Shown here in pieces: positions 29,700 through 37,242 of a DNA stretch of 64,000 nucleotides (within the stretch, counting starts at the first letter, position 1; every line of letters begins with the position of its first letter). The notes below the pieces were generated by a model. That model saw only the letters and a list, made by a program, of their open reading frames with translations. It was not told the origin of the DNA and searched no databases. The DNA is from Alcanivoracaceae bacterium (lineage in GTDB: Bacteria; Pseudomonadota; Gammaproteobacteria; Pseudomonadales; Alcanivoracaceae): contig JARGOL010000012.1 of NCBI GenBank assembly GCA_029212745.1, forward strand, positions 1-64,000. Reading direction: 5' to 3'. The translations under genes were made by a program, and so were the position numbers.

Positions 29700-30680
29700 T
29701 CACACGGCGACGGGGACGCCGTGGTCGGTGCGGTCTGTCAGGATCTCGAATGCGGCGCCATGGGCACTGGTCAGTGTGCGGTGTTCGCCGTTGGCACTGA
29801 CCAGCTCGGCGGTACACCGTGCAATCTTGCTGTTCAGGCAGGTCTTGCTGCCCCCCGGGGGGTTGAAGTAGGTGAGGCCGGTGAAGTGCTGTGCAGGCGC
29901 CTCGATATGCACATTGAGCGTGTCACCGCCACTGCGCGTGCGGAAGCTCCAGTCGAAGAACCGGTATTTCCCCCTGGCACGCAATGCCTCACCGATGCGG
30001 TTGAAGCTGTAGTCTTTGCCGTCCAGGCGCAGGCAGGCGATGGTCAGCCAGGGAGAGGGTACTGGCCCTATACGGACCCGCGCAGTGATGCATTCCAGGA
30101 AGGCATCCGGGGCGTTGTCGAAGCCGGCCACCTGGCCCCAGGCGTACTGGTCGGTATGCTGGCTGCCCCAGTTATGGTTTTCGCTGCCTGACCAGCCATC
30201 AATCAGGTGCTCTTCGCCATTGACGCTGATGCGCCCGGTGAAGCGGACCATCGGACGGGACACCACAGATTTGGCCCGTGGCAGTTTGCGCGGGTAAAGC
30301 GCCTCGGGCAGGAACAGCACGGGGGCCTGGCCGTCATCATAGTTCAGGGTCCAGGACAGCCGGTTTCCGCCATGCTCGGCCTTGCCATTCAGGGCGTGGC
30401 TCTGCAGGTGCGCAGCGGCCAGCTGAACAGACATGGTGTGATCATCGAACTGGCAATCTGCCAGTGGGTATTCTTCCTTTACGGCCGTCACCTGCTGGCG
30501 GTCGCCATCAAACCAGATGGCCCACAGCTCGCCCATGGCCGCCCTTTTGCCGTCAGCGGGAATGAAAAGCGTGTAGCGAATCCAGAACGCACGCGGCGCA
30601 TCCGGTGCATTGGCACGCAGGAACCAGGATTCGTAATGCCCTCCCTGTCCGCTGTACTGGCAACCGTGGTAAGGAATCAC
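29700..30680 (-). CDS. CrtC/AttH-like beta-barrel protein of unknown function
   Basis: 326 residues, no signal peptide. The pattern of FWIRYTLFIP near the N-terminus, then LIDGWSGSENHNWGSQHTDQY and AWGQVAGF, resembles the hydroxyneurosporene synthase/AttH/tocopherol-cyclase-like lipocalin superfamily, which act on or bind hydrophobic isoprenoid or lipid molecules. Starts at GTG 30680, overlapping the preceding gene's stop (GTGA), so it is coupled to the small gene upstream and to the GMC oxidoreductase before that. A role on a lipid or steroid-like substrate is inference; the family assignment is by eye. Confidence 0.55.
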   Translation of the reverse strand: MIPYHGCQYSGQGGHYESWFLRANAPDAPRAFWIRYTLFIPADGKRAAMGELWAIWFDGDRQQVTAVKEEYPLADCQFDDHTMSVQLAAAHLQSHALNGKAEHGGNRLSWTLNYDDGQAPVLFLPEALYPRKLPRAKSVVSRPMVRFTGRISVNGEEHLIDGWSGSENHNWGSQHTDQYAWGQVAGFDNAPDAFLECITARVRIGPVPSPWLTIACLRLDGKDYSFNRIGEALRARGKYRFFDWSFRTRSGGDTLNVHIEAPAQHFTGLTYFNPPGGSKTCLNSKIARCTAELVSANGEHRTLTSAHGAAFEILTDRTDHGVPVAV

Positions 30681-31129
30681 GACAGTGCCCCGCTCTGGTC
30701 GTAGGCGTGCTCCTCGCGTACCAGGCGCAGCGCCTTGAACGGGAATGTCAGCATGGAATCGCGGTAGGCAACTTCTGCACGACCTGCCGGTTTGCCAGCA
30801 CGTGACACAGTCAGCGGGCAGGTGATCAGTGACTGCACCCAGCCGCCCTTGCCATAGGTTTTCTTGCCTTCAGCACGCAGGCTGCCAAGCACCGGATGGT
30901 CAAATTCAAGCCAGTAATGTGGTCCACTCAGGTGGATAGTCAGTTCGCCATTGCACTCACAGCGCTGGCCATCGATATCGACCACACCGCGAAAGACCCG
31001 CGGCACTGACAGGCTGAAAATCCGGGTAGTGAAAGCCTGGATGGAAAAGGCAAAGCTGTGTTCGACCGCATCGCCGTCCAGCTGCATCCAGCCACTCATG
31101 GTTTCGTTCAGTTGCAGTCCGACGCTCAT
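30677..31129 (-). CDS. Small unknown protein linked to the GMC oxidoreductase
   Basis: 150 residues from ATG 31129, chosen because AGGAGG lies six bases upstream; an ATG 15 bases earlier has no such site. Begins MSVGLQLNETMSGWMQLDGD and is beta-rich (CECNGELTIHLSGPHYWLEF). No signal peptide, membrane segment or catalytic motif that I recognise. It starts 11 bases after the GMC stop and overlaps the next gene by four bases, so the three are one transcript. I cannot name the family; it may be a small lipocalin-like or partner domain for the oxidoreductase. Confidence 0.6.
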   Translation of the reverse strand: MSVGLQLNETMSGWMQLDGDAVEHSFAFSIQAFTTRIFSLSVPRVFRGVVDIDGQRCECNGELTIHLSGPHYWLEFDHPVLGSLRAEGKKTYGKGGWVQSLITCPLTVSRAGKPAGRAEVAYRDSMLTFPFKALRLVREEHAYDQSGALS

Positions 31130-31140
31130 GGCAGACCTCC

Positions 31141-33066
31141 TCATTGGTTGATCGTTTCAGCCATCGTGGCAGCGGCACGGGCGGCCATGGCCATGATGGT
31201 TACTTGCGGATTTGCGCCCAGGCTCGTGGGAACATTGCTGCCGTCCATGACATAAAGGCCCTGCCAGCCATGTACGCGATGGTCCGGGTCGCAGACACCC
31301 TTGTCCGGGTTGGCGGACAGGCGTGCTGTGCCCAGTGGATGATAGGCGCTCATCAAGAAGTCGCGTGGTTTATGCCGGCGTGAGAGAAAAGCATCGAGCT
31401 GTTTTTCGCTGTCTATGGCCGTCAGTCCTGTCAGTCCGGGAATCAGCACCTTTTCGGCGCCGGCAGCCAGATAAATGCGCGACAGGATGTCGATGCCTTT
31501 CAGGAACATGCCGAAATCGTGGTCGTTCATGTTGTAACTGATCCAGGGCACGTCCCGGTGCGGGCCCTTGCGTACGCGACCCTCGCTGGTATCCCTGATC
31601 ATGAAGCCGAAGTAGGCCGTTTGCTGGTATTGCTCGCAGAAACGCACGAACCGTTCGCCGTAGAAGTTGCTGAACAGGCCATGGCCAATGAAGGGGATGG
31701 TGCCGCCCTCGAACATCAAACCCTCACTGGCCAGGTCGGCCATGCCGAAGCCCTGGGGGATGGTTCGGGAATTGCCGAAATCCCGGTCCGGGAACAGGGC
31801 GTTGACCACGCCAGCGGGGTGGATCGTCAGGTGCCTGCCCAGGTGGGCGCTGCGCACACCGTTGTCATGCAGGAACAAGGGGGTCATGAAGGTGCCCATT
31901 GCGATAATGGTACGCGCGGCGCGGATACGAAGTGTGACCGGCTTGCCTGCAGCATTGGTGCCGGTGGCTTCGACGCCATCGACACGATGGCCGTTGCGCA
32001 CTAACCGCTGTGCGCGCAAGCCGGTGAACAGGAATGCGCCGCGGTCGAGGGCGCGCGGGACGTAGCTGACATTGGTGGACTGCTTGGCGTCAGTGGGGCA
32101 GCCGAACTGGCACAGTCCCTGGCCATCACAGCCGCGCGCATTGCGGCGCAACGGATGCAACTGGCTGTAGCCCAGTTTGCGCGCGCCATCGGCAATCACG
32201 TTGCCGATTTCGCCCACGTAACGCGGGTCGGCCTGTTCCACGCACAGGACTTCCTCGACACCGGCAAAGACACTGTCGAGATTGTCCTCGGTAAAGCCGG
32301 TCAGGCCGAATTCGTTGCGCCAGCGCGCCAGCACGTTGGCGGGCGTGCGCATGCAGGTGCCGGAGTTGATGGTGGTGGTGCCGCCCACGCCCTTGCCCAC
32401 CGGTACCGGGATGGTGACGTTGCCCACTGCGGTGGTCGCCCCCATGCCGCGGTACAGGCGCGGGATGACTTTGGTGAGCTCACCACTGAAATCTTTCCGG
32501 TTCAGGTAGTCGCCTTCCTCGATCATGACCACGGCAAGCCCGCGGCTGGCCAGCTCATAGGCCGCCGCGGCGCCACCCGCGCCAGTGCCGACGATGACAA
32601 CATCGGCTTCCAGTTCCTCATCGCCGTCGAGATCTGCTGCGCTGGAGACCTGGTGTTGCCAGCGGAACTGTTCTATCTGGCTGGGAACTTCCACGGCAGG
32701 CCGGTTGCCAACTCGCTTTTGTGTCTCGGCATCCAGCATCCACGCCAGCTTGAAAGGCGCGGCGAGGGCGCGCAGCAGGTTGCCGCTGACCGCTTTCGTC
32801 GACAGCCGTTGCAGCACGTCAGCGCGGCGTTGGTGGCTGAGTCGGGTGAAGCGCTTGCCGGTGGACAGCACGGCACGTCCTTCCAGCCACACCAGGCTGG
32901 ACGCCAGTGCCCGGGTCCAGACGGGGTGTTCCTCGAGGTAGCCGGCAACGGTGTCGCAGACCGTGTCCACGTCAGCGGCAGGAATCTGCTCACCGGCCGG
33001 CAGCATGGCCTCCACCAGTGCGGCGGCAATATGCCGTGCTGGCAGCTCGGTAGTTGTTGTTGTCAT
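31141..33066 (-). CDS. GMC-family FAD oxidoreductase (alcohol/sterol oxidase-like)
   Basis: 641 residues from ATG 33066; an ATG at 33084 is also possible. Residues 1-150 are an N-terminal extension, followed by the FAD-binding Rossmann motif VVIVGTGAGGAAAAYELASRG (Gly160 onward). Then come GMC signatures such as GKGVGGTTTINSG, a cysteine cluster (GCDGQGLCQFGCPTDAK), and the C-terminal catalytic region SAYHPLGTARLS with the conserved His. The extension and size resemble long-chain alcohol oxidases and cholesterol-oxidase-like GMCs rather than the shorter AlkJ/choline dehydrogenases. It probably oxidises a long-chain or polycyclic alcohol; substrate is inference. A TACACT -10-like box just before the start suggests it heads this unit. 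Confidence 0.85.
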   Translation of the reverse strand: MTTTTTELPARHIAAALVEAMLPAGEQIPAADVDTVCDTVAGYLEEHPVWTRALASSLVWLEGRAVLSTGKRFTRLSHQRRADVLQRLSTKAVSGNLLRALAAPFKLAWMLDAETQKRVGNRPAVEVPSQIEQFRWQHQVSSAADLDGDEELEADVVIVGTGAGGAAAAYELASRGLAVVMIEEGDYLNRKDFSGELTKVIPRLYRGMGATTAVGNVTIPVPVGKGVGGTTTINSGTCMRTPANVLARWRNEFGLTGFTEDNLDSVFAGVEEVLCVEQADPRYVGEIGNVIADGARKLGYSQLHPLRRNARGCDGQGLCQFGCPTDAKQSTNVSYVPRALDRGAFLFTGLRAQRLVRNGHRVDGVEATGTNAAGKPVTLRIRAARTIIAMGTFMTPLFLHDNGVRSAHLGRHLTIHPAGVVNALFPDRDFGNSRTIPQGFGMADLASEGLMFEGGTIPFIGHGLFSNFYGERFVRFCEQYQQTAYFGFMIRDTSEGRVRKGPHRDVPWISYNMNDHDFGMFLKGIDILSRIYLAAGAEKVLIPGLTGLTAIDSEKQLDAFLSRRHKPRDFLMSAYHPLGTARLSANPDKGVCDPDHRVHGWQGLYVMDGSNVPTSLGANPQVTIMAMAARAAATMAETINQ

Positions 33067-33174
33067 GACGGAGTCTCTGATCATGATCCCAGTGTAGCGC
33101 GCCGGGACCTGTCTGCTTGTCCCAGTGTGCACCAGTGGGTGCGCCAGCCGTCAATCCTTTTGTGACCGGGCGCC

Positions 33175-34155
33175 CTAGCTGCCGGACCGCTTGCGCATGG
33201 GCCTGACATTGGAGGCCGGGTTGTCGCCCGTGGCCTCGTTGCGGGTGCCCTTGTTGCCGGACGAGAACTTCTCCGGAACGATCTGGTAGCCGGTGTTGAC
33301 GATGAACTCCGCCGTTTTAGGCAGCACGTAATACATGCCCAGGGAGAACAGCCCGAATGGCGTGACCATGCGTTTCGGGCGCCGGATGATGGCGTCGCAC
33401 ATCCATGCCACCGCTTTCTTTTCGCTCATGGCGGGAAAGTAGTCATAAATGCGGGTGGGCGCGATCATCGGTGTGCGTACCAGGGGGTAGTTCATCAGGG
33501 TGAAGCTGATGCCGGTGTGCAGCAGCTCGTTCTGGGCGGCCATGGTCCAGCCTTCCAGGGCGCATTTCGAGCCCAGGTAGGCGCTGAAGCGGGGCACGCC
33601 GTTCTGAACGCCCACGGTAGAGACGTTGATGATGTGTCCTTCACCCTGTTCGATCATCTGTGGAATCAGGTTGATGGCCACACGGATGGCGCCGAAGTAA
33701 TTCAGTTGCATGACCCGCTGGTAATCGTGGAACCGCTCCAGGGAGTAGATGATCGAGCGCCGGATGGAGCGCCCGGCGTTGTTGATCAGGATGTCCACCT
33801 TGCCATGCTCCTCGAGCACTTTCTGGCACAGGCGGTCACAGTCATCCAGGTCGGCGATGTCGCTGCGGTAGGCAAATGCCTGGTAGCCGTCGTCGCGCAG
33901 GCTGGCAGCCAGGTCCTGCAGGGTTTCGATGCTGCGGGCGGTGAGCAGTACCGTGGCGCCCGCCTCGGCCAGTTCCCGGGCAACGCCTGCGCCGATGCCG
34001 GAGCTGGCCCCGGTGATCAGTACCACTTTGCCATCGACACGCTTGCGCAGGGCCCAGGAAGGCAGCCGCGAACGCATTCCCCAGGTGACGGAATCGCGCA
34101 GTCGGCGCGCGTGGGGGAGCAGGTTGGGGACGCCGAGTTTGATCTTGCCAGCCAT
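33175..34155 (-). CDS. Short-chain dehydrogenase, stand-alone homologue of the acyl reductase C-terminal domain
   Basis: 326 residues from ATG 34155 (GGAG seven bases upstream); an ATG 21 bases earlier lacks a site. NADP-binding TGASSGIG (48-55), NNAG (125-128), Ser179, Tyr193 and Lys197 give a complete SDR active site. Residues 120-290 run closely parallel to residues 463-633 of the neighbouring acyl-CoA reductase, sharing NNAGRSIRRS, RFHD, MQLNYFGA, PRFSAY and PLVRTPMIAPT. A long-chain aldehyde or acyl-CoA reduction role is therefore likely (inference). A basic 40-residue N-terminus and charged C-terminal tail are extra. It is separated from the reductase by a strong hairpin. Confidence 0.88.
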   Translation of the reverse strand: MAGKIKLGVPNLLPHARRLRDSVTWGMRSRLPSWALRKRVDGKVVLITGASSGIGAGVARELAEAGATVLLTARSIETLQDLAASLRDDGYQAFAYRSDIADLDDCDRLCQKVLEEHGKVDILINNAGRSIRRSIIYSLERFHDYQRVMQLNYFGAIRVAINLIPQMIEQGEGHIINVSTVGVQNGVPRFSAYLGSKCALEGWTMAAQNELLHTGISFTLMNYPLVRTPMIAPTRIYDYFPAMSEKKAVAWMCDAIIRRPKRMVTPFGLFSLGMYYVLPKTAEFIVNTGYQIVPEKFSSGNKGTRNEATGDNPASNVRPMRKRSGS

Positions 34156-34244
34156 TTGACTCTCCAGGGTAAACATCGTGAATACCCCGGGAGTCTACTG
34201 GTACCCGAGGGTTCTGCCAGTACACATGGTGCAAGTTTTTGTGT

Positions 34245-34276
34245 CCACTGGCCCGGCCGTGGCGCCGGGCCAGTGG
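34245..34276 (-). repeat. Long perfect hairpin between the acyl reductase and the SDR
   Basis: 13-base perfect arms (CCACTGGCCCGGC at 34245-34257 and its complement at 34264-34276) with a 6-base loop. It lies 8 bases beyond the acyl reductase stop. On the minus strand no U-run follows, so it is not a textbook terminator; it may protect the reductase mRNA 3' end or slow read-through. Confidence 0.75.
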
Positions 34277-34283
34277 CACCGTA

Positions 34284-36293
34284 TTACCAGTGGATACCCT
34301 TGAAAAGGCGCGAGAACGCGGCCTGCTCGCGGGAGATCTTCTTCGGTGTCGACTCCTTGCCACCAAGGGCAGCGGCGGAGTCAGAGAAGATCTTGTAACC
34401 GGTATTCATGATGGTTTCCGTGACCTTTGGTGTCAGGAAATGCATGACCTGGCCGAAGATGCCGAGGCCCGTGGCCACCCGTTTCGGCTGGCGGACAATG
34501 GCATCGCAGATCATGTCGCCCGCCTGGTTGGGGCTGATCGTCGGCACATGGTTGTACAGTTTGGTGGGCGCAATCATCGGCGTGCGCACCAGCGGCATGT
34601 TGATGGTGGTGAAACGGACGCCCTCGTGCGCCAGTTCCGAGGAGGCGCAGCGGGTGAACGCATCCAGCGCGGCCTTGGAGGCGACATAGGCGGAGAAGCG
34701 GGGTGCGTTGGTCAGCACGCCGATGGAGGAGATATTGATCACGTGGCCACTGCCGCGCTCGGTCATCGAGGGCAACAGGCGCATGATCAGGCGCAGGGCG
34801 CCGAAATAGTTGAGCTGCATGGTGCGCTCGAAATCATGGAAGCGCTCATAGGTGTGCACCACCGAACGGCGAATGGAGCGACCGGCATTGTTCACCAGCA
34901 CATCCACATGGCCGTGTTCGGCCAGGACCTGTTCCACCAGGCGGTCACAGTCGTCCAGGTGTGAGACATCGGCGCTGTAGGAATAGGCCTTGCCGCCCAG
35001 TCGTTCGATCTCGTGCAGGGTTTCCTCGAGTTTCTCCCGTGTCCGCGCCACCACCAGGACAGTGGCACCGGCGCGTGCCAATTTCAGGGCAGCGGCCTTG
35101 CCGATGCCGGAAGTGGCGCCAGTGATCATCACCACCTTGCCTTCCACGCGCTCTTCCAGGGTGACTGAGGGCTCGCTTTCGTCCTCGCGCTCATCACGGT
35201 CCGGGTCCAGGTGGTTTTCCCAGTAGTCCCACAACAGCTGGGCGTAGGATTCCAGCTCCGGGCAGTCGATACCACTGCCTTCCAGGGCCGACTTGGCATG
35301 GGTGTTATCGAATGTGGTCGGGTAGCTGAGGAACTTCAGTGCGCCCTCAGGGATATCAAGGCCCTCAAGTGCCTGGTGAAGCAGGAACTTGGCCGGAGGC
35401 AATGCGCCCATGCCTTTGCGCACGAAGCCGGGCACGGCGGCAAAAAGACTGTTGTCCACCCGCACCGGCATCTTGGGGGCGTCGGCCACGGATGCAAAGA
35501 TGTTCATCACTTCGCCAACGCTGTAGTGCTCATCGGCGGTGAGGTGAAAACACTCGCCATCCTTGTCCGGCACATGGGCAATGTGATCGAGCGCTGCGGC
35601 AACGAAATCCACGGGCACGATATTGAACTGGCCGCCCTCAATGCCCAGCAGCGGCACCCAGGGTGGCAGGAAGTCACTGAGACGCTGGATCAGCTTGAAG
35701 AAGTAGTAGGGGCCATCGACCTTGTCCATTTCGCCGGTCTTGGAGTGGCCCACCACCATGGAGGGGCGATAGACCCGCCAGGGGATGGCGCATTCCATGC
35801 GTACTACTTTTTCGGCTTCATGTTTGGTCTGCAGGTACGGGTCGGCCAGCTCGCCGGCCTCGGCAAACATGTATTCCTTGAATTCGCCTTCGTAGAGACC
35901 GGCCGCCGCAATGGAGCTGACATGATGGAAGCAGGTGGCACCCAGCTCCTCGGCCAGTTTCATGGCATGACGGGTGCCTTCGATGTTGGTATAGCGCTGC
36001 TGGTTTTCGTCCGCTTCAAGGTCATAGATCGCGGCCAGGTGAAAGAAGTGCCCGACCTGGTCCTTCAGGTCATCGCGGTCGCGCTTGCTGACACCCAGCA
36101 ATTTGCGGGTGAGGTCGCCCTTGATGGCAATCAGCCGGTCTTCTTCCACACCCAGGCGTTTACGCAGGGCATCAAGCTTGTATTCGGAGCCTGCCCTGAC
36201 CAGGGCGAACACGCGGCTGTCATCACGCTCAAGCAAACGAGCGACCAGAAAACGGCCAATAAAGCCGGTGGCACCGGTAACGAGGTAATTCAT
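34284..36293 (-). CDS. Two-domain fatty acyl-CoA/ACP reductase (alcohol-forming)
   Basis: 669 residues from ATG 36293 (MNYLVTGATGFIGRFLV); a longer in-frame start adds 35 low-quality residues. The N-terminal extended Rossmann domain has TGATGFIG (6-13), HVSS at 124-127, and Tyr153/Lys157. The C-terminal SDR domain has TGATSGIG (391-398), NNAG (469-472 region), Ser522/523, Tyr536 and Lys540. Layout, length and many segments (MDKVDGPYYFFK, GQFNIVPVDFV, WDYWENHLDPD) match the Marinobacter fatty acyl-CoA reductase Maqu_2507, which turns long-chain acyl-CoA through the aldehyde to the alcohol for wax esters (established knowledge). Expression is probably controlled by the divergent TetR gene through the operator at 36454. 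Confidence 0.92.
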   Translation of the reverse strand: MNYLVTGATGFIGRFLVARLLERDDSRVFALVRAGSEYKLDALRKRLGVEEDRLIAIKGDLTRKLLGVSKRDRDDLKDQVGHFFHLAAIYDLEADENQQRYTNIEGTRHAMKLAEELGATCFHHVSSIAAAGLYEGEFKEYMFAEAGELADPYLQTKHEAEKVVRMECAIPWRVYRPSMVVGHSKTGEMDKVDGPYYFFKLIQRLSDFLPPWVPLLGIEGGQFNIVPVDFVAAALDHIAHVPDKDGECFHLTADEHYSVGEVMNIFASVADAPKMPVRVDNSLFAAVPGFVRKGMGALPPAKFLLHQALEGLDIPEGALKFLSYPTTFDNTHAKSALEGSGIDCPELESYAQLLWDYWENHLDPDRDEREDESEPSVTLEERVEGKVVMITGATSGIGKAAALKLARAGATVLVVARTREKLEETLHEIERLGGKAYSYSADVSHLDDCDRLVEQVLAEHGHVDVLVNNAGRSIRRSVVHTYERFHDFERTMQLNYFGALRLIMRLLPSMTERGSGHVINISSIGVLTNAPRFSAYVASKAALDAFTRCASSELAHEGVRFTTINMPLVRTPMIAPTKLYNHVPTISPNQAGDMICDAIVRQPKRVATGLGIFGQVMHFLTPKVTETIMNTGYKIFSDSAAALGGKESTPKKISREQAAFSRLFKGIHW

Positions 36294-36588: not shown

Positions 36589-37242
36589 ATGACGGAAACA
36601 CGGGCGGAGAAGAAGGAGCGCACCCGGATGCGCATCCTGGATGCAGCGCTGGACCTGATGGCCCGGGGGCGCAGTCTGGATAGCCTGGGTCTGAGGGAGG
36701 TGGCACGCAGTGCCGGTCTGGCGGCCACGTCGCTGTACAACCACTTTGCCGACATGGACGCTCTCGGACTGGCGCTGATCGACCAGGCCTGTTTCCGGTT
36801 GCGCACCGGCATGAGCCAGGGTCGGCGGGCGCTGATCGAGGAGGACCCGGCGGCGGGGCTGCAGGACCTGGTGGACCGGTTTACCACCTACCTGGACCAG
36901 CACGAGGCCGAGTTTCGCCTGCTGATGAAGCAGCGGCTGGGTAATTCGGCCCTGTTTCGCCGCCGCATCCAGCGTGAGCTGGAGCTGCTGGTGGAGGAGC
37001 TGGCGGAGGACGTGCGCCGGGCGGGGGAGCGGCGTGGCCTGCCCGCCATGGATTACGACCGGGCCGCAGAGGCAGCGGTGGCGGTGATGTTCGGGTTTGG
37101 CGCCGTGGCCCTGGACCTGTCCCCGCGGGCGCGCCGACAGGGCCGCGAGCGGGTGGCGGTGCAGCTGAGCATGGTGTTCCTTGGCGGCCGGGCGCTGGCG
37201 GCCGGGTTGCGGCCGGGGGATGCAATCCAGGGTCGAAATTAA
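36589..37242 (+). CDS. TetR-family regulator, FabR/DesT-like
   Basis: 217 residues. The N-terminal helix-turn-helix (RILDAALDLMARGRSLDSLGL, REVARSAGLAATSLYNHFADMD) and the ligand domain (EFRLLMKQRLGNSALFRR) resemble FabR and DesT, which sense unsaturated/saturated acyl-CoA and control membrane lipid genes (family knowledge). It is divergent from the fatty acyl-CoA reductase, and both promoters carry matching palindromes, so it probably represses the reductase and itself in response to acyl-CoA. The effector is inference. Confidence 0.85.
   Translation: MTETRAEKKERTRMRILDAALDLMARGRSLDSLGLREVARSAGLAATSLYNHFADMDALGLALIDQACFRLRTGMSQGRRALIEEDPAAGLQDLVDRFTTYLDQHEAEFRLLMKQRLGNSALFRRRIQRELELLVEELAEDVRRAGERRGLPAMDYDRAAEAAVAVMFGFGAVALDLSPRARRQGRERVAVQLSMVFLGGRALAAGLRPGDAIQGRN

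Follow-up and report, generated by a model that had tools for sequence, protein, structure and literature searches.

The window analyzed here, a stretch of 64,000 nucleotides from an Alcanivoracaceae bacterium (contig JARGOL010000012.1), encodes a two-domain fatty acyl-CoA reductase (FAR) and, behind it, a stand-alone short-chain dehydrogenase/reductase (SDR) related to the C-terminal half (C-half) of the FAR. This relation is real and old, and the SDR is not a near copy of its neighbor: it belongs to a clade of its own, whose members lack the C-terminal G-x-H-W tail, have threonine at the active-site serine position, and occur alone, as genes beside a lone FAR N-terminal half (N-half), or fused to an N-half. 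What we infer beyond these observations, namely the direction of the gene events and the activity, cofactor, substrate and partner of the enzyme, is that the SDR would be an old, freed C-half paralogue, later rejoined to N-halves in two lineages and, in a second family (f199), resplit, and an NADPH-dependent acyl-CoA reductase yielding aldehyde; taken whole, this reading seems to us evenly poised between right and wrong.

Kinship and age

BLASTP aligns the SDR with the C-half of the neighboring FAR at 146 identities in 284 positions (51%; 301 bits, E 2e-101). The five shared words pointed out in the preliminary description begin at SDR residues 132, 148, 156, 195 and 231 and FAR residues 468, 484, 492, 531 and 567, in the same order, as it had said, and all in register at a constant offset of 336. 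In its own genome the SDR has 41 matches including itself, with the FAR C-half at 327 bits (53%) and the next match at 96 bits (31%): the likeness far exceeds both chance and the general similarity among SDRs. The shared words are family signatures that recur in other FARs and in Acr1-like enzymes; PLVRTPMIAPT, for example, is found again in 8/8 f199 FAR C-halves and in 6/7 Acr1-like rows.

The kinship claimed earlier therefore stands, but "near copy" does not describe it. Nucleotide identity is 59.6% over the 284 aligned codons, and third bases agree at 71 of 136 identical residues other than methionine and tryptophan (0.52), against 0.50 expected from the codon usage of seven local genes, leaving synonymous sites at the codon-usage level. 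Across eight genomes, the SDR is 48-54% identical to the C-half of its own FAR and 47-55% to the mean of the other seven. The adjoining positions, the long identical words and the slightly higher own-FAR identity in five of the eight genomes might suggest that the neighboring C-half was duplicated on the spot in recent times, or underwent gene conversion. Such an origin of the SDR is very improbable, given that the gain in identity never exceeds 1.9 points and is reversed in the other three genomes, that synonymous sites are saturated, and that the two proteins lie in separate, well-supported clades.

Phylogenetic placement

The C-domain tree was built from 109 of the 160 C-domain proteins scoring over 200 bits, hand-picked for spread; the same 109 rows underlie the residue and tail counts below. 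The SDR falls in a clade of 29 rows (support 100/100) on the FAR/Acr1 side (99/90 versus other SDRs), not among unrelated SDRs outside the FAR clade, in line with the kinship first proposed. Within that side it groups with neither the Moraxellaceae nor the actinobacterial stand-alone enzymes, and the 15 FAR C-halves from f1, the family to which the window belongs, form a separate clade (97/99). The branches that nest the SDR clade more deeply have support of 93/77, 82/57, 80/81 and 86/90, and none of them is starred. One long-branched Rhodococcus row (L223), classed among the other SDRs, was placed by the tree in the actinobacterial clade.

Two origins had been suggested for the pair: that a duplication freed one domain, or that a fusion captured the neighboring SDR. 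The first suits the old origin of the SDR clade, and the second is a possible interpretation of the fused relatives described below. Neither applies to the FAR of the window itself, however, as the C-half of that enzyme lies in another clade.

Active site and C-terminal tail

Tyr200 and Lys204 of the SDR are kept in all 29 rows of its clade. Thr187, 13 residues before the tyrosine, aligns with Ser523 of the FAR and with a serine of actinorhodin ketoreductase chains that we take to be their catalytic residue. The column holds threonine in 29/29 SDR-clade rows and serine in 65 of 67 FAR, Acr1-like and actinobacterial rows (L220 and L225, both on long branches, differ), a comparison that leaves out the three FAR3 rows (serine 3/3, tail 0/3) and ten other SDRs (threonine 6/10, serine 4/10, tail 0/10). 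It is the only column to pass a 90%/90% difference rule; six more pass a looser one. A tail of the form G-x-[HYN]-[WFVYH] ends 15/15, 8/8 and 31/33 FARs and none of the 29 SDR-clade proteins, and a G-x-H-W-like tail is found in 4/7 Acr1-like and 4/4 actinobacterial rows.

SDRs generally have a serine/threonine-tyrosine-lysine triad, and in the Marinobacter FAR mutants of Ser515, the tyrosine and the lysine lose acyl-CoA reduction (PMC7573125). Judging from length and spacing, Ser515 would occupy the same column as Ser523 of the window's FAR.

Alone, split and fused arrangements

Relatives were surveyed in 57 related genomes and then in 46 genomes of family f1. The SDR type is present in 31 of the 46, in one case fused: in genome G012 a second two-domain protein (FAR2) stands behind the end of the ordinary FAR (FAR1), in the order FAR1-FAR2-GMC, with a C-half 64% identical to the SDR over 322 amino acids and an N-half 52% identical to that of the window's FAR. 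In family f199 the fused form is found in L137, L138, L139 (cut by a contig end), L140, L142, L145 and L146; a C gene lies directly behind a lone N-half gene in L136, L141, L143 and L144; and the C gene is alone in L135 and L148. In all four split pairs the N and C genes are in different frames and each N gene has its own stop codon, with gaps of 22 (L136), 16 or 25 according to the start chosen (L141) and 43 bases (L144) and an overlap of 8 (L143), so that one missed stop codon does not account for the pairs. The C gene of each begins with a leader equivalent to the linker of the printed fused forms: in the four of eight fused rows whose linker was read (G012, L137, L145, L146; the anchor missed L138, L139, L140 and L142), it consists of the FAR N end followed by the SDR leader. 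A divergent TetR gene precedes ten f199 FAR2 loci, as it does the FAR in f1.

Genome G630 of f199 (5% contamination) apparently has two fused FAR2 copies, L138 and L139, one of them the copy cut by the contig end. Three further f199 two-domain FARs without the G-x-H-W tail, L147 (7163-9115), L149 (7067-8983) and L150 (6886-8913), are distant in both the C- and N-domain trees.

In f1, 15 of the 31 SDR-bearing genomes have the SDR no more than about 6 kb from the FAR; the remaining 16, which all belong to genus g8, have it on a different contig or more than 1 Mb away. Nine g8 loci compared from L054 all have the SDR, and their most widely shared neighbor is present in 7/9. Four g8 tree rows fall among f199 rows, grouping with the f199 split forms (98/93), which suggests that the g8 SDR was horizontally transferred; a single clade of the family's SDRs plus G012 is rejected (p 0.006, C-domain tree). 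The SDR of Alcanivorax sp. Bin_5 is 89% identical to that of one g8 genome, which makes f1 probably the family of Alcanivorax.

A search of the order with the FAR C-half (390 genomes) gave SDR-clade members in f1 and f199 among the matches listed, and confinement to these two families refers to rows placed in the tree, not to every match. In a class-wide search, 12 of 274 genomes had a match at 1e-60, and the search gave FARs and other SDRs, of which some were put in the tree. The contig-wide scan covered the best 80 of 583 relatives, many of them general SDRs, and absence cannot be inferred from it. Many family genomes also carry another stand-alone SDR type (L075-L077, L079, L080; 268-288 amino acids, 40-45% identical to the window's SDR), which in the C-domain tree lies outside the FAR clade (L075, L077, L079 and L080; L076 is not in the tree).

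Proposed history

In the history proposed here, a C-half would have been freed long ago from a two-domain FAR ancestor, would have come to have its own N-terminal leader and a threonine at the active-site serine, and would have lost the G-x-H-W tail. Fusion to a FAR N-half would have followed twice, in one f1 genome (G012) and in one f199 clade, and in a sub-clade of the latter the fused form would have split again; in the window the SDR stands alone behind an intact FAR. For f199, the preferred reading is that a neighboring SDR replaced a lost FAR C-half: the AcrB-type C-half would have disappeared, the freed SDR would have substituted for it as a subunit gene, and the two would then have fused and been resplit, making this a naturally split FAR. 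This part is tentative, and we place it a little short of even. The window, with TetR gene, intact FAR and SDR, could represent the state from which such a replacement arose.

The N-domain tree (70 rows) places the ten f199 FAR2 N-halves in one clade (100/99) adjoining the f1 FAR N-halves (96/69, or 95/82 once six long or distant rows are removed); an origin of these N-halves by duplication of the FAR1 of f199 itself is rejected (AU p 9.6e-6). In a TetR tree of 36 rows, unrooted and with long stems, the f199 regulators linked to FAR2 are on the f1 side (96/98) and those linked to FAR1 on the other. Together with the SDR tree, these show three parts of the f199 locus (TetR, N-half and SDR) to resemble the f1 TetR-FAR-SDR arrangement, with the FAR C-half missing. 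The split rows L141 and L144 are nested among fused rows in both domain trees and would most simply have arisen by fission from the fused state; L136 and L143, also split, are the deepest f199 rows in the N-domain tree, so that a split state may have preceded fusion.

Several points weigh against this history. The groups compared in the topology tests were named after the trees had been seen. A common clade of all fused forms is rejected on the C-domain tree (p 0.00019), but this does not demonstrate separate fusions: a single fused ancestor whose descendants repeatedly lost the N-half would fit as well. A single clade of f199 fused N-halves is borderline (p 0.056). The G012 fusion comes from one draft genome (86% complete, 3% contamination), and its FAR2 N-half, on a long branch, is unplaceable (AU 0.41 and 0.53).

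Another possibility is that a whole FAR was duplicated in tandem, as FAR1-FAR2, and that FAR2 lost its N-half several times, the SDR being the remnant. G012 carries FAR1, FAR2 and GMC genes in just this order; the best tree groups the N-halves of family FAR1, f199 FAR2 and G012 FAR2, though without support (53/78); and neither a clade of G012 plus f199 FAR2 N-halves nor one of the SDR clade plus the family FAR1 C-halves is rejected (p 0.41 for each). Against this, the C-domain tree, by a hand count over partly weak branches, calls for six N-half losses if only losses are allowed, versus three changes between alone and fused if both directions are; the printed fused linkers hold the stand-alone leader, which is not in the linker of the window's FAR1; and among 40 loci (L045-L084) a FAR2-type N-half occurs in G012 only, with no N-half match at the nine g8 SDR loci. 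We regard a tandem duplication as a serious contender, though somewhat improbable.

Function and wax-ester context

In the Marinobacter FAR the C-half is the acyl-CoA reductase and the N-half the aldehyde reductase; the isolated N-half has 122% of aldehyde reduction (PMC7573125), and Acr1 is aldehyde-forming (PMC7744569). On these assays, and on its pairing in f199 with an aldehyde-reductase half, the SDR most likely reduces acyl-CoA to aldehyde. It would do so with NADPH, and the aldehyde would pass on to alcohol through a FAR N-half (in f199 the linked or fused one), for wax esters. The window's FAR probably makes fatty alcohols for waxes: its genome has three wax ester synthase/diacylglycerol acyltransferase (WS/DGAT) genes over the cut-off, which makes this use of the product likely. 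Separate aldehyde- and alcohol-forming steps, as first suggested, are plausible from homology. One WS/DGAT gene (G000:C10:74038-75387) adjoins another SDR-like match (75819-76343).

Other observations count against this activity. The isolated C-half of the Marinobacter FAR kept only 3.2% of its activity, and the assayed enzyme was inactive in acyl-CoA reduction when the serine was changed to alanine (PMC7573125); the SDR has threonine there. Stand-alone FCR2 of Mycobacterium tuberculosis is reported to form both aldehyde and alcohol (PMC3522743), which means that a C-type enzyme on its own may go beyond the aldehyde. One possibility, which we consider unlikely, is that the SDR no longer reduces acyl-CoA and instead acts on some other carbonyl or alcohol (a fatty aldehyde or alcohol, or a ketone), perhaps supplying the GMC enzyme. 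The threonine and the missing tail, both without exception in the clade, would suit such a change, as would the separation of SDR and FAR in genus g8 and the presence of the SDR in 23 of the 25 f1 genomes with the GMC gene. Opposed to it are the eight of 21 genomes that lack the GMC gene and carry the SDR all the same, and the f199 proteins, in which the SDR type holds the acyl-CoA-reductase slot, fused to or paired with an aldehyde-reductase half, as expected if the step were kept.

These GMC figures are plain counts, uncorrected for relatedness; 25 of the 46 family genomes have the gene. The earlier suggestion that aldehyde and alcohol feed the GMC oxidase found little backing: the tie is weak, eight of the 31 SDR-bearing genomes lacking the GMC gene and the 16 g8 genomes having the SDR far from the FAR, and a close SDR-GMC association was rejected on these grounds. 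Alcohol or aldehyde may be the substrate of the oxidase, which is not closely tied to the SDR. A firm pair is formed instead by the GMC gene and D326, found in the same 25 genomes.

Relation to known systems

FARs of the AcrB/Maqu_2507 type (NF005539) have a C-half homologous to the SDR, with the same tyrosine and lysine; unlike them, the SDR has no N-half and no G-x-H-W tail, has threonine for serine, and has its own leader. Acr1 of Acinetobacter is, like the SDR, a stand-alone relative of the FAR C-half, but the five Acr1-like f23/Moraxellaceae rows form another clade, with a tail of the G-x-H kind in 4/5 and serine in 5/5; in the C-domain tree Acr1 was represented by a named Psychrobacter relative (L219), not by Acr1 itself. 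FCR2 (Rv1543) is another stand-alone C-half relative, in the same genome as the two-domain FCR1 (PMC3522743). The actinobacterial stand-alone rows, by contrast, keep G-x-H-W and serine (4/4) and form another clade; Rv1543 itself was not among the rows compared, and its GIHW end was read from a primer printed in PMC3522743.

Free FAR C-halves like Acr1 and FCR2 are thus a known theme; what appears to be new is a threonine-bearing, tail-less clade that exists in free, split and fused states. No report of this SDR clade or of a naturally split FAR turned up among the papers listed by literature searches or in the available parts of PMC3522743, PMC7744569, PMC7573125, PMC11948995, PMC10351704 and PMC5806253. 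The Marinobacter C-half with 3.2% activity was cut in the laboratory (PMC7573125); here the halves are naturally encoded apart, joined or alone, and would allow direct tests. Is aldehyde passed between the halves? What is the role of the conserved tail? Could a lone C-half be an efficient source of aldehyde for alkane or wax production?

Features of the window

The FAR is a full-length member of NF005539, over the curated cut-off and with two SDR domains; we take this family to be the AcrB/Maqu_2507 type, the AcrB name being given in PMC11948995 and the membership of Maqu_2507 being presumed. The SDR scores 350.6 bits against the same model, below the cut-off of 549, matching the C-half only (residues 42-313) and no N-half. 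It has the classical SDR architecture (PF00106, 163.8 bits), a Rossmann fold with TGxxxGxG, NNAG and YxxxK present. Its true start is probably Met8, judging from a GGAG six bases upstream and from the leaders of several relatives, which begin at this position.

Table 1. Coordinates of the FAR, the SDR and neighboring features in the window.
Feature	Position	Strand	Basis or remark
Two-domain fatty acyl-CoA reductase (FAR, AcrB/Maqu_2507 type), 669 aa	34284..36293	-	NCBIfam NF005539, 954 bits (cut-off 549), residues 1-669; NAD_binding_4 and adh_short
FAR N-half (aldehyde-reductase half by homology)	35178..36293	-	Pfam NAD_binding_4, residues 5-234; role from PMC7573125
FAR C-half (acyl-CoA-reductase half by homology)	34287..35168	-	adh_short, 386-576; SDR match begins here
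FAR G-I-H-W tail, not in SDR	34287..34298	-	Sequence
FAR Ser523, active-site serine column	34725..34727	-	Aligns with SDR Thr187
Stand-alone SDR, 326 aa if read from Met8, the probable start (333 aa from ATG at 34176)	33175..34155	-	Open reading frame
SDR N-terminal leader, residues 8-45; serves as linker in fused relatives	34042..34155	-	Sequence, model
SDR Thr187, catalytic serine position	33616..33618	-	Alignment
SDR Tyr200, catalytic tyrosine	33577..33579	-	29/29 in SDR clade
SDR Lys204, catalytic lysine	33565..33567	-	29/29 in SDR clade
Strong hairpin between FAR and SDR	34241..34279	-	-51.3 kcal/mol for 101 nt, z -5.64
GMC oxidoreductase gene downstream	31141..33132	-	PF00732, PF05199
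D155, 155-aa protein	30677..31144	-	Pfam/NCBIfam: no match
D326, 326-aa protein	29700..30680	-	Pfam/NCBIfam: no match; same 25/46 genomes as GMC
FabR-like TetR regulator, divergent from FAR	36589..37242	+	NF008402, 155 bits (cut-off 151)

In an AlphaFold2 model of the SDR (mean pLDDT 74.3), every block of residues 41-130 exceeds 90 and the ends are low; the leader is modeled with helices at 20-34, at low confidence, and 40-47. Searches of PDB sequences listed other SDRs and one MxaA in the top 60 of 658 and of 615 matches, and nothing named as a fatty acyl-CoA reductase. For D326 the PDB gave nothing better than E 0.15, and for the GMC protein weak matches, with choline oxidase best (1.5e-15). 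The GMC gene and D155, and D155 and D326, overlap by 4 bases, and the TetR gene adjoins the FAR in many relatives. The hairpin lies directly behind the FAR stop codon; in several of 16 folded relatives, strong hairpins of differing sequence stand in the same place behind the FAR.

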